From a virus, in the IMG/VR virus record IMGVR_UViG_3300016457_000282, positions 62,001 through 126,000 of that record: a stretch of DNA of 64,000 nucleotides. One strand, given 5' to 3'. The position numbers were made by a program, and so were the translations under genes. This document shows positions 13,176-64,000 of this stretch, piece by piece (the first letter of the stretch is position 1; each line of letters starts with the position of its first letter). The notes under the pieces were generated by a model, which had not been told where the DNA came from, did not search any database, and saw only the letters and a list, made by a program, of their open reading frames with translations.

Positions 13176-13255
13176 CCTTAGCAAATTTTGCTTAATAAGA
13201 TTTAATAAGATCTTATAAGATCTTATTAAATCTTATTAAGCAAAATTTGCTAAGG
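13176..13255. other. Centre of the palindrome, candidate hairpin telomere or resolution site
   Basis: The dyad axis falls between 13215 and 13216 inside TCTTATAAGA (13211-13220). Smaller palindromes are nested off-centre: AAGATCTT at 13207-13214 and again at 13217-13224. The core is extremely AT-rich and contains ATTAAAT/TTAATAAG words. Protelomerase targets such as N15 telRL are also perfect palindromes resolved into closed hairpins; that comparison is by analogy only, and no protelomerase gene lies in this window. Confidence 0.5.
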
Positions 13256-23659: not shown

Positions 23660-23873
23660 TTTCCTTCTCCTGTTGAACTTCCAAAGTCTTTCTTAGAGCT
23701 TTCTTATATCCACCATTCCGCCTGATACTCACTTTCGTTTTCTTATAACGCCCTTCTTTCGTACTCCACCAACGAACTTCAAAGAAACTAGTTACATACT
23801 CTTTACAATCTCCATACAGAGAAAGCCATGATGCTTTAGCGCATGAATGAATCTGTGTTATGTTTCTACGCAT
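23643..23873 (-). CDS. Inverted copy of the small basic protein 2558
   Basis: Mirror of 2558-2788. Confidence 0.5.
   Translation of the reverse strand: MRRNITQIHSCAKASWLSLYGDCKEYVTSFFEVRWWSTKEGRYKKTKVSIRRNGGYKKALRKTLEVQQEKENAEAN
23801..23846 (-). repeat. Inverted copy of dispersed repeat C
   Basis: Mirror of 2585-2630. Confidence 0.7.
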
Positions 23874-25321
23874 TTCCATCCTCCATATGGATATACTACA
23901 TTCATATCCTTAAGCTTGAATCGTGTTCCATCGTATGTATATCCAAATCCACCTGTCAAACTATAACCCTTCAACACATCAATATGATTGTCGATTTCAA
24001 TTGTAGCACCTTCCTTGAATCCAACTTCAGAGAACTTCTTTCGATAGCCTTTGACACCAGGATTTACTTTGACTTGATAACCCTGTTTTAACAGTGGTAG
24101 AATTTTCGTACTGTATACGTTATGAAATGACTCTGGATTTCCATTTCGATTCGTAGCTACACGAATACACTTCTTGTTTTTGATGACATAGTACAATCGA
24201 TTACGTTCGCTATTCTTCATTCTACGATTATGCTGTCGTTTCTGTTCAAAACGTACCACATGTTTATCGATGAATGGTTCATGTTTGATTTCAACGTTGT
24301 TTCGCATCAGTTTGTTGATAGCAATACAGTAAGCATCATTACAGTGAGATTTGACAAGATTGAGCTCTCTACGAATAACATATGAATCAGCACCAATACA
24401 GAACCAAACATGTTCTTTACCGAAAGCATCTGACAACCAATCTTTTAAAAACGGCATAATGATATTGAGTCTGGATGTAGATGTGAAGTCTGCTATTTTC
24501 GTTTTGATTTTGCTTTGTACTCTTTTCAGCAACTGAGCATCAGTATGTACTTTAACGTGACAATCTGGGCACAGTGTAATAAGATTATCCGGATGATCTT
24601 TACCGTTTTGAGATCTGGGTACTACATGATGCAGCTGAAATTGAACGTTCTTCTTTCCGCATAGCTGACATGCATACTTATCACGGTGTAGTACATAAGC
24701 ACGAATATTTTGGTAACCGAATAATCTTCCGTGTTGATACTGCTCACCTTCAATATCTGAATTCATCATACGTTGGATGTCAAACTTAGCATATTCAAGT
24801 GAGATGTTAGCGTCAGGAACGTATTCAACTATTTTCTGTATAGCAGCTTTATGTGACTCTAGAAAATGTCGAACTGATGGAGTCAACCGTCCATCTAAAC
24901 GTCTTCTATTTTCGAATCTAGCTGGTCTATGCTTTGGTACGAGTCCTTTTCTCTTAATACGTTTACGTCTGAAGTATCGTCTCATATTTCGATATCCCCG
25001 TCTTATCTCAAGTAATTGCTTGATTTCTTTCGACCTTGTGTGAAATTCGATACTTAGCAATTGCTTGACTTTGTTATACATAGTGATTCTGACTAAACAA
25101 ATACCAATCGTATCTCCTGGATCTACTCCAATCCAGTATATAGGGTTATCTCTTTGCTGCGATAGTGTCTTGAACACTTGTACGACCATAATTTTACCGA
25201 CAAATCGAATGACTTTAGCATTCATCTGTCGCAACCAACGTTTAACCATATCCAACTTTCGTGTTGGATGTAAAATGTTATTTCTTCCATCTACAAGAAA
25301 TATTAATCGTTGATGTTGCAT
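23858..25321 (-). CDS. iscB: Inverted copy of IscB-type nuclease
   Basis: Mirror of 1110-2573. This is the copy contiguous with the unique sequence, so it is the better reference copy if the palindrome is a read-through. Confidence 0.9.
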   Translation of the reverse strand: MQHQRLIFLVDGRNNILHPTRKLDMVKRWLRQMNAKVIRFVGKIMVVQVFKTLSQQRDNPIYWIGVDPGDTIGICLVRITMYNKVKQLLSIEFHTRSKEIKQLLEIRRGYRNMRRYFRRKRIKRKGLVPKHRPARFENRRRLDGRLTPSVRHFLESHKAAIQKIVEYVPDANISLEYAKFDIQRMMNSDIEGEQYQHGRLFGYQNIRAYVLHRDKYACQLCGKKNVQFQLHHVVPRSQNGKDHPDNLITLCPDCHVKVHTDAQLLKRVQSKIKTKIADFTSTSRLNIIMPFLKDWLSDAFGKEHVWFCIGADSYVIRRELNLVKSHCNDAYCIAINKLMRNNVEIKHEPFIDKHVVRFEQKRQHNRRMKNSERNRLYYVIKNKKCIRVATNRNGNPESFHNVYSTKILPLLKQGYQVKVNPGVKGYRKKFSEVGFKEGATIEIDNHIDVLKGYSLTGGFGYTYDGTRFKLKDMNVVYPYGGWKCVET

Positions 25322-31529: not shown

Positions 31530-32675
31530 TTAATCAATATAGTAAACAGTACCAAAAGGTACTCGTATGTCTAACGTTTGGAAAGTTCTAACTACAATCC
31601 AAATCACAGAGTAAGTAGGTGTCTTTTGAGGAAAGGTACCAAAAGTGTCTGTAAAGTATACGAACAAGTCAGGTTTCAGTTTTCTCTTCTCAACATCTTC
31701 AAAAGGCGGTGCTAGACTAGTACCTCCACCTCCTCTCAAGTTCGCAACCAGCTCGTCATACGACGGGTTATGTAATACAGCGTGAATATCAGCATCTATC
31801 ACATAAACCCAATGTTCTGAAACTAACTTCTCAACTCGTTGATATTCAGCACAGAATTTCGAAAGTTCTTGTTGCGAAATACTACCTGAGGTATCAAAAG
31901 CCGTAACGAGATTAAACTCCTTCTTGTAGTTACCAGCTAAACGAACGTCGCAAGCGATTTGGTAGTACGGTAACTTCGTATAGGTTGGTGTAGCAACTTT
32001 CTTTCCTATGAAAGACAAAATCCTAGCCGCGATTACTCGCTCCCAAGGAACTTGAGACTTATAACCTTGGTCAATCTCACGCAGCACGTCGGCAGAAACA
32101 CTACCTTGGGACTTGAGATGATTCCCAAACTCATATAATGATCCAGTACTTATCGGCAGAGGTTCAGTAAAGTGCTTAGGGGGTCTGATACCATCTACAG
32201 TAAGCGGTACTAATCGTATTGTCTTGCCGCCAAACTTAAACTCGGTTTTTCCTTCCTTTTTAGTCTTATCTACTAAGCGTTGTAACTCTCGATAAATCAA
32301 CTCGGCAGGCCCATCAGGAATATCTCGAAACAGTATAAACCTATGTTGTTCAACCCAATTCACAGACTCAAGCTCGAGGACAGTAGTTAATAAGTTGTTT
32401 ACAACATGGTCAATAGCTAGTCCCCAAAGGACTCGATCTTTTCCAGCACCTCTTCTAATGTGGTTGAATATGTAGTGTAGCAGTTCGTGACAGTACACAA
32501 ACAACTGAGTTTGATAATCTTCTTCTTCAGATATTACAATGTGACTATCTCGAACCAGACAACCGCCTATTTCACTAGGCAACTTATCGAAGTAGATCGG
32601 AATTTGTAATGCAGCAGATGTTCCTACCTTTCGATAAGCATCAATTCTTAGTTTTGTATCCTTTTGTTTCTTCAT
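31530..32675 (-). CDS. VWA-domain protein with putative metallopeptidase domain (DUF2201-like)
   Basis: 381 residues. The N-terminal domain carries HELLH at 63-67 and LAIDHVVNNLL at 87-97, the pattern of the putative metallopeptidase that precedes VWA-like domains. The C-terminal VWA domain has the metal-site motif DTSGS (261-265) and GGGGTSLAPPF (316-324). Such proteins pair with MoxR-type ATPases, and one is encoded directly upstream. They probably act together as a chaperone or protein-remodelling unit. Confidence 0.85.
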   Translation of the reverse strand: MKKQKDTKLRIDAYRKVGTSAALQIPIYFDKLPSEIGGCLVRDSHIVISEEEDYQTQLFVYCHELLHYIFNHIRRGAGKDRVLWGLAIDHVVNNLLTTVLELESVNWVEQHRFILFRDIPDGPAELIYRELQRLVDKTKKEGKTEFKFGGKTIRLVPLTVDGIRPPKHFTEPLPISTGSLYEFGNHLKSQGSVSADVLREIDQGYKSQVPWERVIAARILSFIGKKVATPTYTKLPYYQIACDVRLAGNYKKEFNLVTAFDTSGSISQQELSKFCAEYQRVEKLVSEHWVYVIDADIHAVLHNPSYDELVANLRGGGGTSLAPPFEDVEKRKLKPDLFVYFTDTFGTFPQKTPTYSVIWIVVRTFQTLDIRVPFGTVYYID

Positions 32676-32676
32676 T

Positions 32677-33666
32677 TTACTCTCCTAAAATAGCTGCTAG
32701 TTCATCTACAATTTCTTTCATGTGTCTATTACGATACAGGAACTTGACCTGATCGGGAAATCGAGTGAGAACTAGTCTGAAGTAACAAGCTCGAGCGTCC
32801 GGAGTCAACTTCTTAATTGTCACAAGTATGCGGTCTGTGGGCTTGTATGACGATAGAAAGGCTGCCGCGGCTACTTGATCTTTCAAATCAGCGTCAGTGA
32901 AATCTTTCGACAAAAGATCATTGAGAGACTGATTCAGAAAAGGCCAAGCATCTACTATTTTGGATCCAGCATCGATTCCTACTACACCTGGAGCCACTTC
33001 AATTGAGAATCCTGCCTTAAGTGCCTTATCTAAAGAAAACCAAGCTCGAGGCGATGGAAACTTCTGACTCGTTCCTGGATCAGGCGTATATAAGTAGTCT
33101 GTTCCATAAGAAGACAAGAATGTAATAATTCTATTATCAAGACCTTGAGAAATCGCATACTTTACGAAGTCTTCTAGAGTAGGAGTGTACCCGACGAAAA
33201 GGTCGAACCTATCCATAATAGGCGCCATTATCTCAGAGGCGCTAGCTGACGCCAGACCAATATTTCCAGCTGCAACGAACCTGGTCGACTCTGGAACTGT
33301 ATGTCCATGCAGTCTTCTGCACAATAGTAACTCATATAAAGGGCTTTGATTGTATTCACGAACTAAATGAATGTCGTCGAAAAACAGAGCCGTGTTTTCC
33401 TTTTCTGGTAGCCAATCAGGCCGAGACCAAACAGTCCTTCTCTCAACTAGCCAAGGAATGCCTTTAGCCTCACCTGGCTCCATTAAATAGAGTCGTACCT
33501 CAGTCGGTGTCAGTACAGCAAACGATTCTGAGACTTCACTTATAGCTTGGAAGAAAATTTCGCTCTTCCCAATACCTGGCGCCCCTGAGGCCAAAACAGA
33601 TAAATTGTTTCGCAGACACTTTACTAGTACTTCTTTTAACGCGTAACTTCCTTCGATTCTATACAT
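32677..33666 (-). CDS. MoxR-type AAA+ ATPase
   Basis: 329 residues. Walker A GAPGIGKS (28-35), Walker B TALFFDDIH (92-100), and sensor-like FVAAGN (130-135), as in MoxR ATPases. One base separates it from the VWA partner gene. These ATPases are thought to load or remodel metal-binding and complex-forming proteins. Phage-borne pairs are known; their target is not. Confidence 0.85.
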   Translation of the reverse strand: MYRIEGSYALKEVLVKCLRNNLSVLASGAPGIGKSEIFFQAISEVSESFAVLTPTEVRLYLMEPGEAKGIPWLVERRTVWSRPDWLPEKENTALFFDDIHLVREYNQSPLYELLLCRRLHGHTVPESTRFVAAGNIGLASASASEIMAPIMDRFDLFVGYTPTLEDFVKYAISQGLDNRIITFLSSYGTDYLYTPDPGTSQKFPSPRAWFSLDKALKAGFSIEVAPGVVGIDAGSKIVDAWPFLNQSLNDLLSKDFTDADLKDQVAAAAFLSSYKPTDRILVTIKKLTPDARACYFRLVLTRFPDQVKFLYRNRHMKEIVDELAAILGE

Positions 33667-34467: not shown

Positions 34468-34782
34468 CTATGAACAAGTAACATTTTTTCTAAAAAATTT
34501 TTCTAAAAAATAAAAAAAAGAGCACATAACAAACGCACATTCTGTCAAAACCAACAAACTGTATACTACACATACAAATATCAGTAAATTCACTTTTTTG
34601 TCTAAACAACACAACAGTCCTACGGTATAAGCCAACAGCACTTTCACTACAATCAACAGTCTAGGTGAATTCTCTAACAACGGTCTCACAAGCGGATTAG
34701 CTTCCCCACATCCTAAGTACATAGTTAATACTACATCGAGTACCTGAAGCAGCATTAACAACATTGTTAATTGCAAGTACAT
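34468..34782 (-). CDS. DUF5658-like membrane protein
   Basis: 104 residues from ATG 34782. Three hydrophobic helices; the first carries LDVVLTMYLGCGEANPLVRP, the hallmark (D..TxxxLxxGxxExNP) of a small membrane family called DUF5658. Its last codons fall inside the AT-rich leader motif 2. The start abuts the promoter of the divergent mini-gene, so the two cannot be transcribed independently. Confidence 0.7.
   Translation of the reverse strand: MYLQLTMLLMLLQVLDVVLTMYLGCGEANPLVRPLLENSPRLLIVVKVLLAYTVGLLCCLDKKVNLLIFVCVVYSLLVLTECAFVMCSFFYFLEKFFRKNVTCS
34491..34535 (-). promoter_or_regulatory. AT-rich leader motif, copy 2
   Basis: On the minus strand: GTTATGTGCTCTTTTTTTTA then TTTTTTAGAAAAATTTTTT, nearly the same head as copy 1. 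It overlaps the 3' end of the membrane-protein gene and lies upstream of 34050-34367. Confidence 0.4.
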
Positions 34783-34783
34783 G

Positions 34784-34812
34784 TTGACAATCCGTTGATC
34801 AGCATCTATACT
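34784..34812 (+). promoter_or_regulatory. Near-consensus sigma-70-type promoter
   Basis: TTGACA at 34784-34789, a 17-bp spacer, TATACT at 34807-34812. It points at the Arg/Gly-rich mini-gene, leaving a leader of about 20 bases with AGAGG before ATG 34839. It is the best textbook promoter I see in the window. Confidence 0.8.
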
Positions 34813-34838
34813 TAGGAAAAAACAAAAAGAGGTAAATA

Positions 34839-35000
34839 ATGGCACTAAGACAACCACCAAGACCGCGTGATGGTAGAGGCCGAGGTAGAGGCGTTTCGGG
34901 AGGACAACGACAAGGTCGTAATAGAGGTCCTTGTAAATTTGGAGGACCTGGTTTCGGAATGGGAGGCGGTCGCGGGAAAGGTGCTGGTAGAACTCGCTAG
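34839..35000 (+). CDS. Arg/Gly-rich mini-protein (RGG-like)
   Basis: 53 residues, 18 Gly and 12 Arg, net charge strongly positive, one Cys. It contains DGRGRGRGVSGG, QGRNRGPCKFGG and GMGGGRGKGAGRTR. AGAGG precedes the ATG at a good distance and the promoter at 34784-34812 is in position. It is the only plus-strand gene in this minus-strand block and converges on 34997-35179, their stops sharing CTAG. Arg/Gly repeats bind RNA or DNA in other proteins, so a nucleic-acid-binding role is likely. The Gly-rich middle is also faintly like small DUF5320-type proteins. Confidence 0.7.
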   Translation: MALRQPPRPRDGRGRGRGVSGGQRQGRNRGPCKFGGPGFGMGGGRGKGAGRTR

Positions 35001-35179
35001 TCGTATTTACTCAACGACGCTGCACACTCTTCACAGTATTCGCCGATCCAAAACTCGTTCAATGCCTTAGAGTAGCTAAAGTCAGAGTAGTCACAAGACA
35101 CTACCTCGAACTCTCTACAAGCGATCAGAGCAAGCTCTCTGCCGCACTTTCTACAACAAATTGTAATGTAGTCCTTCAC
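34997..35179 (-). CDS. Small zinc-ribbon-like protein
   Basis: 60 residues. CCRKCGRELALIAC and YCEECAAS give two CxxC knuckles, spacing typical of a zinc ribbon. Convergent with the mini-gene. Function unknown. Confidence 0.65.
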   Translation of the reverse strand: MKDYITICCRKCGRELALIACREFEVVSCDYSDFSYSKALNEFWIGEYCEECAASLSKYD

Positions 35180-35188
35180 GACTTACTC

Positions 35189-35677
35189 CTAAAGTGTTTT
35201 GATTGAGGACAACTCCTCAGTCAAAGCATCTTCAGTGTTAACAGGCAGCATCAAGCTGTAAGCGCCCCAAGAACGCTCAGTTTCATACAGAGTCGTGCAC
35301 AAAGACGCAATAGCCTCAAAAGTAGGCTGTGAGAGAGTATTCTTTAACGCAAAGTACATCTTAACGGTACTAAGATAGGTTAAGTATTCAACTGTAGGAT
35401 CTATAGGTAGTATTACCGTTCCTTTTTTATCAGTACTAGCATCACTTGTCAAGAACTTGTGATCGAAAAAGTCCTCAACTTCTCTTTTGAGGAGTTGTTT
35501 TAACACTGAAAAATCAACGAGCATTCCTCTAAATTCGTGCGGCTCTTGAGTAGTTGTAATCGAAAATTCACCTTTGTACGTGTGTCCATGAACTCGAGAA
35601 CACGGATGTCCTTCTGGTACAGTCTCGCTCAATCGATGAGCGGCATTAAACGAGAACTTTCTTGCGATTGTTAACAT
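35189..35677 (-). CDS. queD: 6-carboxytetrahydropterin synthase-like protein
   Basis: 162 residues from ATG 35677 behind AGGAGGTATGAC. Zinc residues His14 (NAAHRL), and His30/His32 in CSRVHGHTY, plus VDFSVLKQLL, FDHKFL and PTFEAIA, are the QueD signature; Cys26 is the catalytic cysteine. QueD converts dihydroneopterin triphosphate to 6-carboxytetrahydropterin on the way to preQ0. Phages with queD often make 7-deazaguanine bases for DNA or tRNA. QueE and QueC were not seen in the window. Confidence 0.85.
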   Translation of the reverse strand: MLTIARKFSFNAAHRLSETVPEGHPCSRVHGHTYKGEFSITTTQEPHEFRGMLVDFSVLKQLLKREVEDFFDHKFLTSDASTDKKGTVILPIDPTVEYLTYLSTVKMYFALKNTLSQPTFEAIASLCTTLYETERSWGAYSLMLPVNTEDALTEELSSIKTL

Positions 35678-35678
35678 G

Positions 35679-36056
35679 TCATACCTCCTGATCAATATTT
35701 TCGCCTACTAAGATCCTTACATTAGGATCGCCGTTCCAGCGATAAGGAATGTGATAAGCATCGAGTTTTTCGCATAATTTCTTTCCTACTTCTTTAGTTG
35801 ACAATCCTATTGTACCATATTTTTGAGTAACACAAGGTCCATAAGCAATGTACATTCGACTATGATTTCTAAGACTCTCCTCATCTTGCCGAGTCCAAAA
35901 GATAGCTCCTTTAACTTCCTTTCCTTTCTCATAAAGTTTTTCAGCTCTACAAGCAAGCTCTGATCCTGCGCAATTTCGACAACACATAAAATTGGCTCGA
36001 GCGAGGAATCCTTCTTTACGCAACTCTTTGAAAACTTCGATCAAACGACTTCTCAT
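35679..36056 (-). CDS. Small CCxxC protein, DUF6891-like
   Basis: 125 residues. FLARANFMCCRNCAGSEL, GAIFWTRQDEESL, YIAYGP and IPYRWNGDPNVRI follow the order of a small bacterial family (CCxxC, then QDxE, then WNG) I recall as DUF6891. Operon partner of queD, overlapping its ribosome site. Function unknown. Confidence 0.6.
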   Translation of the reverse strand: MRSRLIEVFKELRKEGFLARANFMCCRNCAGSELACRAEKLYEKGKEVKGAIFWTRQDEESLRNHSRMYIAYGPCVTQKYGTIGLSTKEVGKKLCEKLDAYHIPYRWNGDPNVRILVGENIDQEV

Positions 36057-37466: not shown

Positions 37467-37560
37467 GTTCCGGCTGAGACCTTGTACCTTTACGACTGCG
37501 AAGTGACTAAGTAGCAAGTGAGCGTAACACTCACTATGAGATAGGTCCTATAGCCGGAAC
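37467..37560 (-). ncRNA. Candidate structured RNA at the 3' end of the reverse-transcriptase gene
   Basis: GTTCCGGCT (37467-37475) pairs with AGCCGGAAC (37552-37560), extended by GACCT/AGGTC, and encloses AGTGAG-N7-CTCACT. The fold is about 94 bases and includes the RT stop. It is not a tRNA (no T-loop). It could be a terminator-like end, a stability element, or part of the retroelement. Confidence 0.45.
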
Positions 37561-38496
37561 CGTTTCACTTCGGTACACCATATTTAACCAACCTTTGATA
37601 CCGTTGATTTTATGTTTACTTAATGAGATCTTACCTGTCTTATTGTTGTGAAGCATAGCTCGGTACAATCTTCTAACCTTACGCGATATCGTAACTTTGT
37701 CAGAATGAACTACACAACCCAAAACTCGTAGCTTGCCTCTTCCGACTCTTAACTTAGAAGGATGAAGCTCAAGACTGATTTTGTTTAGGTAACGGTTAAT
37801 GACCTGACTCGTTTTTGAGATGGAGATTTTAGCGTCTTTAGGAAAGGACACTAGTATATCATCTGCGTAACGAGTGTATACACCGTGTAGTCTCGCAATT
37901 ACTTCTGCAATTACTAAATCAGTCTGAGAAAGCACGATATTGAACAACCGGCCCGAAGTAGGAGCTCCTTGAGGTAAACCTTTAAAGTAACAATCTCTTA
38001 TCAACATTTGTCTAACAGAAAGCGGCACATCGTGCTTTACCAGTACTGAGTCGAGAACTTTTTTTCTGATCGAAGGATAAGCATCCTTTATGTCCAGTCT
38101 TAGGAACAAGTAGTTACCTACATGCTTTTCAAGAGCATCTCGTAAAGATCTGCGTTTCTCGAACGCATAAGCGTGCGTCACTTTAGGAACCAAAATGTAG
38201 GTTAGCTTTAACCACGCTCGCTGTCTCTCCTTGAGTTGATCTGAAGGAATGTACAGAGTTCTAAAACCACCAGACCTTTTAGGGATCCTAACAGGAGTAT
38301 ACTCAACTTTAACGTCTTCGCTTAACACATTATGGTACTGTTCATACCAATCTCTCAAAGCGTGCTTACGCACTCCTAACCAAAAAGCAGAAGTGCCTTT
38401 CTCTACCAACTGTGAGTAAACAAAAGCAAAGGAAGGAGACATCTCAACTTCTTCAACATCGTTAAAGATCGACAACAGTTCGTCCAAGCTGAACAT
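37534..38496 (-). CDS. Retron-like reverse transcriptase
   Basis: 320 residues behind AGAGGAATAGT. RT motifs are present: first catalytic Asp in RLDIKDAYPSI (133-143), KGLPQGAPTSG (172-182), and YTRYADDILVSF with YADD at 210-213. The end of the palm, RVLGCVVHSDKVTISRKVRR (257-276), and the following thumb resemble the VTGxxVN...V..R..R region of retron RTs. QGAPTS rather than LGNxTSQ argues against a diversity-generating element. It has no obvious fused effector. The upstream 400 bases carry no gene and several stems, as expected of a retron ncRNA. Confidence 0.75.
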   Translation of the reverse strand: MFSLDELLSIFNDVEEVEMSPSFAFVYSQLVEKGTSAFWLGVRKHALRDWYEQYHNVLSEDVKVEYTPVRIPKRSGGFRTLYIPSDQLKERQRAWLKLTYILVPKVTHAYAFEKRRSLRDALEKHVGNYLFLRLDIKDAYPSIRKKVLDSVLVKHDVPLSVRQMLIRDCYFKGLPQGAPTSGRLFNIVLSQTDLVIAEVIARLHGVYTRYADDILVSFPKDAKISISKTSQVINRYLNKISLELHPSKLRVGRGKLRVLGCVVHSDKVTISRKVRRLYRAMLHNNKTGKISLSKHKINGIKGWLNMVYRSETVPAIGPIS

Positions 38497-40446: not shown

Positions 40447-40570
40447 GATATATCGCCTCTTTTCTTGTTCTAACTAATCTCTCTTATGATTTACTTTTTT
40501 AAATACAGAGTACTAGGTTCGTTTTCGTTTTTTCAAAATTAAGAGTATCGGATTCACTCTTCAAATTTTT

Positions 40571-40745
40571 AAATGAGAGAGTACTAAAAGTCATTCTCCG
40601 ATTTTAAATGAGAGAGTACTAAAAGTCATTCTCCGATTTTTATAAATGAGAGTGTACTAAAGTCATTCTCCTCTTTTAATGAGAGTGTACTAAAGTCATT
40701 CTCCTCTTTTAATGAGAGTGTACTAAAAGTCATTCTCCGATTTTT
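40571..40745. repeat. Five iteron-like direct repeats
   Basis: Five units of about 35 bp start near 40571, 40606, 40643, 40677 and 40710. The unit is AAATGAGAG(A/T)GTACTAA, then AAGTCATTCTCC and a T-rich linker. Within the unit, GAGA and TCTC form an imperfect dyad. The divergent position between 40102-40446 and the ParB-like gene suggests an origin, centromere or operator array. No spacers of unique sequence are present, so it is not CRISPR. Confidence 0.85.
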
Positions 40746-40851
40746 AAATTTTTTAGATATGGGGTACTTACTCCTGTTATTGTAACTCAACCGCCCCGGG
40801 TTCAGTTCCTAAGGGGGTGTTTTGTGAGGTACTTAACGTAGTTTAGTTCCT

Positions 40852-49951: not shown

Positions 49952-52087
49952 CTACTCCTCAACTGTAATAATCCTACACTTGTTCTTATCACCACTCCAA
50001 CGAATTTCCGGGATTATCTTTTCACGTATTATTCTGTGTTTGTATTTGATTAGGTTGGTTAAGATGTTTTTGATCACTACAGCGGGGTTTGCTGTAGGTT
50101 TGTAGCCAAGTCTAGGTAAGTTGTTCCTATCAGGGTTGTAGTAGTGATCTTCCGCTTCAACTCGTGGATTTTCATAGTGAGCGAGTTTGACAGTGAACCC
50201 CAGCTTTTCTGCCTCCCTCTTTACCAACCGAGCCAGCCAGATGATTTCGTATACATCCTCGAATTGGTTAAACACTCTATATTCTCCTTCCTTGGGAGGG
50301 TTCTCAATAGCAATACGGAAGCATTGCATGGAGTCTTGAATGGGAAGGAACCCTCTCTTCTGCTTCCCTTTTCCATAAACCGTTAGTGGAATTCCTACAA
50401 TAGCCTGAGCGCAAGTACGATTTACGAGAGTGCCGAAGCAGTTATGCACCTGGACGTTGTTTGCGACGTACGTGTGATCTTCTTCAACATGGAGGTTGTA
50501 TACCTTCCCTTTGTACATCTTACTTGAAACTGATTTTACTCGCACCAGGTTGTCAAACCCTCCTGAATGTAAATAGATAGGACAGCTCAAATCCATTACG
50601 CTTATGATCGAAGTCCCGTTTGCGACTAACCTGTTAAACCTCTCATACTTCTCAAGGAACGGATTAGTTTGAACTTGGAGCCATTCTTTTAGTTCTCGCG
50701 CTGTCATCCACCGTGTCGTCTCTTTACCGTGCGCTGAAGAGAGCGTCGTTACTAAGATGGGATGACCTGGCGTACAAACAATTTTTCCAAAAGCGCGCTC
50801 AAGTTCTATCTCTATCACTTCCCCAACGTATTCTCGTTCAAACTTCTTAAGCACCTTTCGAAACCGACCCTTATGAGTTAAGACTTTGTCTCCTACCTGA
50901 ACGTCTTTTATAGGTTTTACGCCCTCTAAGCATGTAATTCTGGTGTTAGGAGGAAAACATTCATCTACATCATAGCGAGTAATTAATCTCTCATCTCCTT
51001 TCATTTCGGGGATCTGAATCCCATAAACCACTCCTTGCATGATATCAGTAGATCTAAGCCCCCAAACGTCGCAAGCAAATCTAATGTTGACAGAATCGTG
51101 TACCTTCGTACAATGATAAAAACTAGGAGGTTGACAAGGAAAAGGAAGAGTATCTTTACGCCCTCTATATTCAACTTCAAAGAATCCCTCAGGAATGTCG
51201 AGGTTTGTGACGCCATACTCTCCCATTGTGTTTCCTGACCAAGCCGCTTTTCCGTTCCGGCGTACATATATGATTCCTGTAGGAACGGTGCAACAGTACA
51301 CCTTTCCTGCATAAGGAACCCATTCCATATCAGAAGGAGTTACTTTAGTTTGGCTATCTATCTGTGGAATTATGAAGCTAGATTTCTTTGCCACGTGATC
51401 AGCCCTCTTTATCTGCACAACTCCCGAAGGAGATTCTCTAAAGACCACTCTATGATTGGGAGTAATCACGAAATCGACATCGTCGTTCACAATTCTCAGC
51501 ATCTCTCCCGCATACGGATACTCAACTATATGGTTTGGACAGTTGAACGATACTTCTCCTGTTTCTCCGTTGAGACAGCATACTTTGTCAGAGTAATCTA
51601 GGTCCTTGAACAACTTCCATCCTTTACTTGTTAGCACCTCTGTTTTGTCGTCATAACATCCTAATTTAACTAAGTGGATATCCTTACTCACAGCTTTGAT
51701 GGCGTACAAAAGGTTTAAGGTCCCCACTAGGTTGTTGACTTGGGTGAAAGTAGTGTGATGTACATCGATCATTGAGTAAGGTGCAGAAGGCATTTCACCT
51801 AGGTGGACAATTGCATCTGGTTTGAACTCTTTAATGGAGTTCAACACAAATTTGGGGTTCCTTAAGTCCCCGAAATAGAAAATAGGTTTCCTACCAAACA
51901 CTTCCTCACAAGCACGTATCCTCTCTTCCATACTCGCGATGGGTGTCACGGATTGAGATCCCATCTCCTCAACCCACTCTCTTCTCAACATCAAATCACA
52001 GCCACCTACTACGTAACCCCTAGCAAGTAAGTAAACAGTTAAAGTCCAACCCAAGTAACCATCCATTCCTGCAATATACACTCTCAT
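49952..52087 (-). CDS. sqdB: UDP-sulfoquinovose synthase-like enzyme interrupted by two inteins
   Basis: 711 residues from ATG 52087 behind GGGAGGTTGCAG (a TTG six bases upstream is rejected). The exteins join into about 395 residues matching SQD1/SqdB: Rossmann start MRVYIAGMDGYLGWTL, HLGEMPSAPYSMID, VKLG-TMGEYG, SFYHCTKVHD, GVVYG, VFNQFEDVY, RVEAEDHYYN. In plant SQD1 the catalytic residues are Thr, Tyr and Lys; here Thr287, Tyr324 and Lys328 are present. Intein 1 is residues 144-286, intein 2 is 377-549. The enzyme makes UDP-sulfoquinovose from UDP-glucose and sulfite. In a phage it could decorate a surface glycan or reroute host sulfolipid, which is inference. Confidence 0.85.
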   Translation of the reverse strand: MRVYIAGMDGYLGWTLTVYLLARGYVVGGCDLMLRREWVEEMGSQSVTPIASMEERIRACEEVFGRKPIFYFGDLRNPKFVLNSIKEFKPDAIVHLGEMPSAPYSMIDVHHTTFTQVNNLVGTLNLLYAIKAVSKDIHLVKLGCYDDKTEVLTSKGWKLFKDLDYSDKVCCLNGETGEVSFNCPNHIVEYPYAGEMLRIVNDDVDFVITPNHRVVFRESPSGVVQIKRADHVAKKSSFIIPQIDSQTKVTPSDMEWVPYAGKVYCCTVPTGIIYVRRNGKAAWSGNTMGEYGVTNLDIPEGFFEVEYRGRKDTLPFPCQPPSFYHCTKVHDSVNIRFACDVWGLRSTDIMQGVVYGIQIPEMKGDERLITRYDVDECFPPNTRITCLEGVKPIKDVQVGDKVLTHKGRFRKVLKKFEREYVGEVIEIELERAFGKIVCTPGHPILVTTLSSAHGKETTRWMTARELKEWLQVQTNPFLEKYERFNRLVANGTSIISVMDLSCPIYLHSGGFDNLVRVKSVSSKMYKGKVYNLHVEEDHTYVANNVQVHNCFGTLVNRTCAQAIVGIPLTVYGKGKQKRGFLPIQDSMQCFRIAIENPPKEGEYRVFNQFEDVYEIIWLARLVKREAEKLGFTVKLAHYENPRVEAEDHYYNPDRNNLPRLGYKPTANPAVVIKNILTNLIKYKHRIIREKIIPEIRWSGDKNKCRIITVEE
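50441..50959 (-). other. Mini-intein 2 (173 residues) in the sqdB-like gene
   Basis: Starts CFPPNTRITCLEGVKPIKDV (Cys1) and ends HVEEDHTYVANNVQVHN before Cys550. Block B is CTPGHPILV; the terminal HN and +1 Cys are intact. Insertion is between YDVDE and CFGTLVNR of the extein. No homing endonuclease domain. Confidence 0.85.
51230..51658 (-). other. Mini-intein 1 (143 residues) in the sqdB-like gene
   Basis: Starts CYDDKTEVLTSKGWKLFKDL (block A, Cys1) and ends YVRRNGKAAWSGN before Thr. Block B is VITPNHRVVF with TPNH; block F is VYCCTVPTGIIYVRRNG. No LAGLIDADG or HNH homing domain. The +1 residue is Thr287, the catalytic threonine, so the enzyme is dead until splicing. Confidence 0.85.
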
Positions 52088-52112
52088 CTGCAACCTCCCA
52101 CTACAATGTAAC

Positions 52113-61522: not shown

Positions 61523-64000
61523 TTAAACCTCCTCTATGGTTCGCCTCGGCGTAAGCGATTCTATAGTTGTGTCTACAATCAAACCTAACATGGTAGTGAT
61601 CAACTCAACCGCTCCAGTTAAGGTCGTACTATCTACTCCCAAAGATGTCGATCTTAGTACCCTGAGCAACACATCCGCAGTAATGGTGTTAGAGGTAATA
61701 TCTATAGCAAGTGCCTTTAGAATCGCGAGAGCTGCTTGAGCAACCTGAGCAGTGACTACAATCTCTACTTGCCCAACTTTAACGATTATTAGCCCGACGC
61801 TGTTCGACGACGTAACAGCGGCCTGAATAGCAGAAGTAACAGAGCGAATCAGCTCGAGTACCACAGCGTGCGAAGCGGTTTGAGTTTGAACTTCAGTTGA
61901 AATCAGTCTTAATATCGAGAACTTCGCATTACCAGTAAGAACTTGTGAAACAACATCAGCGGCTGCTTTTATGAGCGCGGCAATAGAAAGTTCAACAGAA
62001 TCTGAAGAGGTAGTCTTAACTTCGGTTAGTGTTAACAACTCGCGTAGTACATTCGAACTAACTTCACTGGTAGTAACAGTAGTTACAACGTTGGCCGCAG
62101 CAATAAGCACTTCGACTAACAACAAGACAACGTCATCAGCAGCCAGTGTTTGGACTGAGGTAGCACTCGAAACAGGTCTTAGCACTCGTAGCGGAGCTGT
62201 TGAACCACTTGCTTGACTTAAAATATTAACGAGCACTTCTCTCAATAACTCAAGAGGTACATCGCCCGTGCCAGTAGTCGTTTGAATATGTGATACGAGA
62301 GCTCGTTTTATTGCCAGAGAAGTAGTTGAAGGTATAACTAGCGCAAGAATGTTTGAGACTGCTGTGATCAACTGCGCTAGGAGAAGTTCGGCGTCGTCGG
62401 GAGTTGACGATTGTGCGGTGATCGAGTTTAAAGCAATCCGTAGAACGTTCAATGTCGTAGGTGACGTAACAGTGTGACTCAAAACGTAGGTAAACACCCT
62501 TTTCAGTAGTCGAAGTACTACACTGTTGGAGTCCGTCAACACAGAAGCGCTCGTTACAAGTGACCGGAGTACCAAGAGACGTGGCGTGTTAGTACTTGTT
62601 CCAGTGACAATGTTCGCGATCGCTGTAAACAGCTCGGCCAGCGAAAGTATGACTTCGTCAGAGGCGTCGGATTGCAAGGGTATATTTGCCAGCAACTCCC
62701 TAACTACGTGTAAGTGAATCAGAGCTGATGTAAAAGACTGCGCTTGTAGCGAGCTTGTGAGATTCCTCAAAACTCTGAGGGCAGTAGTGCTTGCGTACGA
62801 CTGAATTGGCTCAGAACTAGTTACACGGCGTAGTACTGAGAGAGCACCACTCGGAGTAAACGTACCAACCTGAGATTGTGTTAAAGCGTTCCTCAGTATA
62901 TCTAAATGAAAGATGCTAGAGTCAGAGACTGGGAGTACGTTACTTAACAGCGACCGTAAGATGACTAAATCCGAATCGGCAGTAGTTGATTGACTACTTA
63001 CACCGACCATCGCTAGTTTAGTTAAAGAGAGGATAATCTCGTCAGTAGAGGAACTAGGTTGAATGTTTGAAGTAAGGGTAAGGAGCAGTCCTAAGTGGGA
63101 AAGAGAAGTAGTGCTTAGAGAACTGAGGGAAGCTGATATACTCCTGAGTACGCTAAACGACGTGGCCGGAGTGAGAGACGCTAATAGTATATCAGCTATA
63201 GCTGTAAGTACTCCTCCACCTCCGCTCACATATTCATCCACTCCAATATCCCAAGGAGCAGAGCGAGTTTCACCATCGATGTCGTCAGTGAAAGCTAAAT
63301 AAGGATCAGATGAAAGGTCTGTACCTGCGTCTCTAGCTACTGTATCAGAAGCATCAAGGTGAAAGTCGCCATTAGCTGCGTCTACAAAAGTGACCGTAGC
63401 ATTATGGATTGAATTTGGTCCTGGAGCTGTATCATCTGACGAGATGTTGAAATCTGAATCAGAGTCGAAAACTCCAACAAAACAAGTAGTACAGTCAACA
63501 ATGTTGTTGATAGCTCTGCAATACCCTGATGATCCACCATCTACACCAGTACCACAGTTGATAATAGTATTGTTGTATAAGTAGTAATAGTCGTTTCCAC
63601 GAATGGCATATTGAGGTATGTCATAAAAAAGATTATTGACCAAATAAATTTGTACAGCAGAATTATCACAACTAATTCCAGTATTTACTGTTCCACCAGC
63701 ATTCTCTCTACAGAGGATACATTTTTCGACCCGCAGATAACGGCTTGTGTAATATGTATGTATCAACAACTGAGACCCTGTCGATCTCGTTCCTTTCATC
63801 TGTAAGCCAATAAGTCTCACATACTCTTCTTGTATGTCAAAAATAGTTCCTTCGGAGAGCACAAGCCTGTACTTTGTGTCATCCCATTTCCCTGGGTGTC
63901 TGTACCCCTGATCTGGATCGGTCCAAATCCTAATGTAGTGATCCGAGTCTACAGAAGTCCATCCATCAATAGTAACTGCACTATCATCCTCATCCCCAGT
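61523..64000 (-). CDS. Large tail fibre: beta-helix plus repeated LRxL helices, 5' end outside window
   Basis: The frame is open from 64000 (TGDEDDSAVTIDGWTSVDSD ...) to TAA/TAG before 61523, 825 codons in view. The first 250 residues form a right-handed beta-helix (RVEKCILCRENAGGTVNTGI; NNIVDCTTC; WDIGVDE). The rest is 18 or so units of about 30 residues built on VLR-x2-x-S, then Q-x-S/T-rich linkers, probably an elongated shaft. No ATG can be assigned in the window. Confidence 0.75.
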   Translation of the reverse strand, partial: TGDEDDSAVTIDGWTSVDSDHYIRIWTDPDQGYRHPGKWDDTKYRLVLSEGTIFDIQEEYVRLIGLQMKGTRSTGSQLLIHTYYTSRYLRVEKCILCRENAGGTVNTGISCDNSAVQIYLVNNLFYDIPQYAIRGNDYYYLYNNTIINCGTGVDGGSSGYCRAINNIVDCTTCFVGVFDSDSDFNISSDDTAPGPNSIHNATVTFVDAANGDFHLDASDTVARDAGTDLSSDPYLAFTDDIDGETRSAPWDIGVDEYVSGGGGVLTAIADILLASLTPATSFSVLRSISASLSSLSTTSLSHLGLLLTLTSNIQPSSSTDEIILSLTKLAMVGVSSQSTTADSDLVILRSLLSNVLPVSDSSIFHLDILRNALTQSQVGTFTPSGALSVLRRVTSSEPIQSYASTTALRVLRNLTSSLQAQSFTSALIHLHVVRELLANIPLQSDASDEVILSLAELFTAIANIVTGTSTNTPRLLVLRSLVTSASVLTDSNSVVLRLLKRVFTYVLSHTVTSPTTLNVLRIALNSITAQSSTPDDAELLLAQLITAVSNILALVIPSTTSLAIKRALVSHIQTTTGTGDVPLELLREVLVNILSQASGSTAPLRVLRPVSSATSVQTLAADDVVLLLVEVLIAAANVVTTVTTSEVSSNVLRELLTLTEVKTTSSDSVELSIAALIKAAADVVSQVLTGNAKFSILRLISTEVQTQTASHAVVLELIRSVTSAIQAAVTSSNSVGLIIVKVGQVEIVVTAQVAQAALAILKALAIDITSNTITADVLLRVLRSTSLGVDSTTLTGAVELITTMLGLIVDTTIESLTPRRTIEEV

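Follow-up and report, generated by a model that had tools for sequence, protein, structure and literature searches.

A family of small Gly/Arg-rich proteins under protein-level selection in uncultivated phages

Low-complexity peptides rich in glycine and arginine are commonly dismissed as disordered filler, and both gene finders and the low-complexity filter of BLAST can overlook them. The described systems closest to the protein reported here are the RG/RGG proteins, the DUF5320 family (PF17253) and the protamine-like viral DNA condensers. In the definition quoted in PMC9957100, a tri-RG motif is RG(X0-4)RG(X0-4)RG, and the 53-residue protein encoded by the virus studied here contains such a stretch, RGRGRG, at residues 13–18. 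Like the RG/RGG proteins it is basic, Gly-rich and predicted to be disordered, but it contains no RGG (the median in its family is one) and so has no di- or tri-RGG repeats; moreover, the whole protein constitutes the motif, and it comes from a phage. It differs from an ordinary RGG tail in its fixed spacing, its residue-by-residue conservation and its invariant Asp, Asn and Cys. The term ‘RGG-like’, used in an earlier note on this DNA, thus suits the tri-RG stretch and does not suit a protein lacking RGG in which invariant Asp, Asn and Cys are held at fixed spacing.

DUF5320 proteins are likewise small and Gly/Arg-rich, and they too carry an Asp near the start, then GR..G.C, and end in a GRG tail. 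However, their D-to-C spacing and TGPxGxGPxTGR signature are absent from the present family, and DUF5320 occurs in cellular genomes. The protamine-like condensers, such as baculovirus P6.9, are also small, Arg-rich and viral, as described in PMC6669607 and PMC6163548; the present family, which resembles them in these general features, is much richer in Gly, has a conserved Asp and Cys, and comes from viruses of bacteria or archaea. The literature on ‘disruptin’ offered nothing usable on a comparable peptide.

The window analysed is a stretch of 64,000 nucleotides (positions 62,001–126,000) of the 150,430-bp IMG/VR record IMGVR_UViG_3300016457_000282. The gene, on the plus strand at 34839–35000 (ATG at 34839, TAG at 34998–35000, read from the sequence), encodes a member of a family of Gly/Arg-rich small phage proteins (MALRQPPRPRDGRGRGRGVSGGQRQGRNRGPCKFGGPGFGMGGGRGKGAGRTR). 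Recounting agreed with the 53 residues, 18 Gly and 12 Arg given earlier; the protein also has two Lys, one Asp and one Cys, and with a net charge of +13 is small and highly basic. A Shine-Dalgarno stretch, AAAAAGAGGT, lies at 34824–34833 (+), 5 nt ahead of the start codon. The first conserved block, R-D-G-x-G-x-G-x-G-x-x-G-G-x-R-x-G-R-N, spans residues 10–28 (34866–34922, +), and the core common to all subfamilies, G-R-N-x3-C-x3-(G-x)n-G-R-G-x-G, spans residues 26–49 (34914–34985, +). The gene does run against the strand of its neighbours, as had been noted. Upstream is a divergent minus-strand gene for a DUF5658 membrane protein (34468–34782, or to 34860; PF18902, E = 1.9e-9), and downstream a convergent minus-strand gene which, from a reading of the sequence, encodes a 60-aa protein with a Cys pair (CxxC; 34997–35179). 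The palindromic stop CTAG (34997–35000) is common to the family gene and the CxxC gene.

The same virus is found at 100% identity in the metagenome-assembled genome (MAG) ‘bacterium isolate AUK014’ (~1.2 Mb; the related genomes listed are 0.4–0.9 Mb), where it occupies three contigs, C1 of 96.9 kb (96,904 bp), C33 of 9.0 kb and C5 of 21.3 kb. Contig C1 (L108–L112) runs 52 kb past the IMG/VR record, and the virus is at least ~127 kb long. Since the gene sequence is 100% identical in this independently assembled MAG, an assembly error is ruled out; the family gene sits on a viral genome that has been assembled twice. The part of C1 outside the record carries ORFs that by eye are terminase-, portal-, protease- and capsid-like.

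Positions 1–26430 of the window are their own exact reverse complement (axis at 13215/13216), and the entire 150,430-bp record is presumably self-complementary too. A perfect hairpin lies at the axis, between tandem arrays (21-bp × 4 and 20-bp × 3), and contig C5 ends within the axis array. The palindrome could be either read-through of an unusual genome terminus, hairpin-like or of another kind, or an assembler fold-back; a search for a ResT/TelK-type protelomerase (PF16684) found none. An HNH endonuclease gene with an IscB/RuvC-HNH look is present at 1110–2573 and in its mirror copy at 23858–25321 (best PHROG E = 1.3e-28), and Rfam had no match for an omega-RNA. Elsewhere in the window are an AAA-ATPase-like gene (weak match) adjoining a DUF2201 VWA/metallopeptidase gene, a MoxR-VWA-like pair (31530–33666); a reverse transcriptase gene (37534–38496; RVT_1, E = 1.8e-23); a 33–35 bp tandem repeat of 5.2 copies with 89% matches (40567–40749); and a nucleotide-sugar epimerase ORF (49952–52093) that two intein-like insertions appear to interrupt, given its PHROG matches to proteins with inteins. 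A gene for a QueD homologue (PF01242) at 35189–35680, together with QueC and QueE homologues on C1 (L108:990–1754 and L109:2358–3044), belongs to the 7-deazaguanine pathway and suggests a modified guanine in the viral DNA or in tRNA. A DpdA-like gene is suspected by eye alone at L108:262–960, where there was no PDB match.

Searching with the 53-aa query gave one relative (L003), and the resulting two-row alignment gave a second (L004). Two degenerate-pattern DNA scans were then run over 2.9 million viral contigs, selecting on almost non-overlapping parts of the protein. The pattern for residues 10–28 was found on 28 contigs, in nearly all of them as part of a short ORF whose start codon and Shine-Dalgarno-like stretch are correctly placed, and that for residues 26–49 on 60 contigs, 36 of them new, giving 64 contigs with relatives. 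Of the 28 loci that the N-terminal scan had picked out, 25 also match the C-terminal pattern, for which they had not been selected; conversely, 26 of the 36 loci added by the C-terminal scan have the upstream motif [RQKH][DN]GxG. With the window and one further locus (L033) there are 54 distinct proteins, and the family is common to no fewer than 50 separate loci of uncultivated phages. Because member lengths vary so widely, the shortest probably being 36 aa (L076, read from an internal ATG) and the longest 77 aa, the GRN-to-GRG-x-G core is the common denominator, and the window protein matches it exactly. The family consensus is NPRGxxRPRDGRGxGxGMPGGxRxGRNTGGCxxGGPGxGxGGGRGxGxGR. The nearest relative of the window protein is L028 (81% identical). 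Net charge across the family is +7 to +18, and a single Cys is present in 51 of the 54 proteins.

An alignment of 25 diverse members has 18 invariant columns: Gly and Arg residues are fixed, as are Asp, Asn and Cys at one position each, and an alternating Gly register is kept over 14–20 residues. At the invariant Gly and Arg columns every synonymous codon is used, CGN and AGR codons encoding the same Arg. Divergence is 0.68–0.71 at the third codon position and 0.15–0.31 at positions 1–2, and between the window gene and L028, 22 codons differ silently and 10 with a change of residue. Third positions are free while residues are fixed, and a purine-rich Shine-Dalgarno-like stretch precedes the gene in all 25 representative members; the protein is therefore under selection. 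These signatures show 34839–35000 to be a genuine gene of a previously unmodelled family, selected at the protein level, and the view that a very basic Gly/Arg-rich mini-protein is encoded here is borne out by the family, the codon-level selection and the Shine-Dalgarno-like stretches alike. We infer translation of the frame from its codon, start and Shine-Dalgarno-like signatures. One family gene (L012:2561–2710) has an in-frame TAG exactly where L023, L026 and L033 have Gln, so that TAG is probably a Gln codon in this phage.

The word ‘hidden’, applied to the gene in the earlier note, is apt in that no curated family model covers it. Pfam, NCBIfam and PHROGs gave no match for the window protein, nor did Pfam and PHROGs for 25 relatives; the two members run against NCBIfam had none there. 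Likewise, tblastn against phage and plasmid records gave no match, a result that the low-complexity filter leaves uninformative, and blastn of the gene against phage records returned two short chance-like matches only. In cellular genome contigs, tblastn with the family alignment confirmed no relative. When 84,980 species of bacteria and archaea were scanned with the pattern, two loci came up: this virus as binned in its MAG, and L033, which lies on a contig of a Thermoplasmata MAG and is possibly viral. The family profile had no match in ~290 further archaeal relatives, nor among 195 relatives of the window's MAG apart from that MAG itself and one hit in another small genome (G174, E = 7e-4), which was dismissed as a member since it contains an internal stop. 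The accepted cellular matches all lie on viral or possibly viral contigs, and the family appears to be phage-restricted. The kind of protein is known, namely a small basic phage protein of unassigned role; the family itself, with its fixed Gly-X register and invariant D, N and C, is absent from the libraries searched, and catalogues of small phage genes elsewhere may list it unnamed.

After deduplication 51 loci have 101 adjacent genes between them; 88 of these lie on the same strand as the family gene, and in none of the 51 loci are both neighbours opposed, an arrangement seen only in this virus. The adjacent genes include those for terminase, portal, major head protein, head protease, tape measure, baseplate-region proteins, dUTPase and a regulator, and no partner gene is conserved across the loci. 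Terminase or portal genes make up ~8 of 101 neighbours vs 2 of 81 control genes (Fisher p ~0.10), and the distance to head/packaging genes gives p ~0.02–0.17 depending on the statistic; proximity to these genes is suggestive only. Three contigs (L013, L022 and L027) share the replication operon of this virus, with ~40–53% identity over the main genes, and hence belong to its relatives. In these the family gene directly follows the dUTPase gene within the operon, whereas in this virus a polymerase gene comes 27 bp after the dUTPase gene and the lone family gene, with its own promoter match, stands roughly 90 kb away. The gene therefore relocates or is re-acquired. The family is spread over otherwise unrelated tailed-phage genomes with no fixed genomic position.

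For the function of the protein, nucleic-acid binding or condensation, as proposed earlier, is what its composition most readily suggests. AlphaFold2 with 25 relatives gave a pLDDT of 51 and no secondary structure, a low confidence that is consistent with disorder. We hypothesize, with a probability of roughly 0.4, that the family is a disordered polycationic nucleic-acid-binding accessory protein for genome replication or packaging. The chain alone would be unfolded and would extend along nucleic acid, with its Arg and Lys contacting phosphates and its alternating Gly-X backbone fitting a groove; its invariant Asp, Asn and Cys could supply a defined turn, contact a partner or join two chains by a disulphide. 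In this way it would act as an accessory DNA or RNA binder in replication or packaging, a role that would fit the terminase, portal, major head protein and dUTPase genes among its neighbours. Because these three residues are invariant, some specific contact or disulphide is expected on top of charge, and their fixed spacing would seem more than a generic polycation needs, which speaks against a plain nucleic-acid binder.

The sigma-70-like promoter TTGACA-N17-TATACT reported earlier is present upstream of the gene (34784–34812, +; TTGACA at 34784–34789, 17 nt, TATACT at 34807–34812), identified by a consensus match alone at 11 of 12 bases. In the non-repeated part of the window it shares its rank as the best with a second 11/12 match at 51087 (spacer 16). 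Two such matches compare with 0.98 expected there under a dinucleotide model, and the mean best sigma-70 score upstream of this virus's genes is 7.9 vs 7.7 expected, so there is no general enrichment ahead of them. The chance of so good a match just 5' of the validated gene is estimated at ~3e-4 for this gene alone, uncorrected for the 73 called genes. The number of matches is thus at chance level; the exact position before a validated gene keeps the promoter credible. A strong ‘early-type’ promoter with high expression is unsupported, given this chance-level count and relatives that usually stand in co-directional gene runs.

The promoter match also bears on a host-takeover peptide, whose invariant D...GRN...C motif would bind some conserved machine of the host, be it the ribosome, RNA polymerase, a nuclease or a defence protein. 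Phage restriction, a mobile gene position, precise residue conservation and the promoter match in this virus would all fit, but elsewhere the gene is usually co-directional with its neighbours, terminase, portal, capsid and tail genes among them, in no known early region, and the 11/12 promoter count is at chance level. This reading is doubtful, and the earlier suggestion of host takeover finds no support beyond these points; many of the other loci fall within clusters of replication or head/packaging genes.

Doubtful, too, is a phage-wide peptide that takes up one precise extended Gly-X conformation and has an invariant Asp/Asn/Cys clasp directed at a universal nucleic-acid or ribonucleoprotein target. 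If true, it would be a new mode of recognition by a low-complexity protein of 36–60 residues, and a portable function shuffled among phage genomes.

A structural or internal peptide of the virion, its (Gly-X)n chain in an extended or polyglycine-II-like assembly in or on the particle, would agree with the fixed Gly register and the frequent virion-gene neighbours. It is unlikely, however, since AlphaFold2 gave no confident fold, the PDB profile search returned composition-type matches alone (E 0.2) and no meaningful solved structure, and the gene has no fixed position in head or tail modules.

Were the protein a generic low-complexity RG tail, conserved in composition alone and with no specific partner, the tri-RG motif and low predicted order would be accounted for. 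However, a profile built without the window protein and L028 scored the window protein at 62.6 bits, whereas 2000 shuffles of the same residues averaged -10.6 and reached 8.5 at most; conservation therefore exceeds composition alone. Together with the 18 invariant columns, this makes such a tail improbable. Distant membership of DUF5320 is highly improbable: the style is similar (a D-x-x-G start, GR-x-x-G-x-C and a GRG-rich tail) and hhalign aligns GxxxGRxxGxC, but with a probability of 10.6% over 28 columns, while the Pfam model matches 0 of 25 members at E ≤ 1 and the family profile (A3) 0 of 68 archaeal genomes carrying DUF5320. A cationic membrane-active lysis peptide would likewise be small and cationic with a single Cys, but a hydrophobic fraction of ~0.13 across the family and the lack of a predicted amphipathic helix leave it barely plausible. 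Finally, although Gly/Arg codons do yield repetitive G-rich DNA and Rfam, with no match for the locus, is silent either way, a structured RNA or spurious ORF is refuted by the codon-level selection and by family-wide start codons and Shine-Dalgarno-like stretches.

The defined consensus can now be synthesised and tested for nucleic-acid binding, virion location and host targets, and the search pattern is available for annotating the gene. What the family represents is a low-complexity sequence whose individual alignment columns are conserved among uncultivated phages that are unrelated to one another, one of them probably with TAG as a Gln codon.
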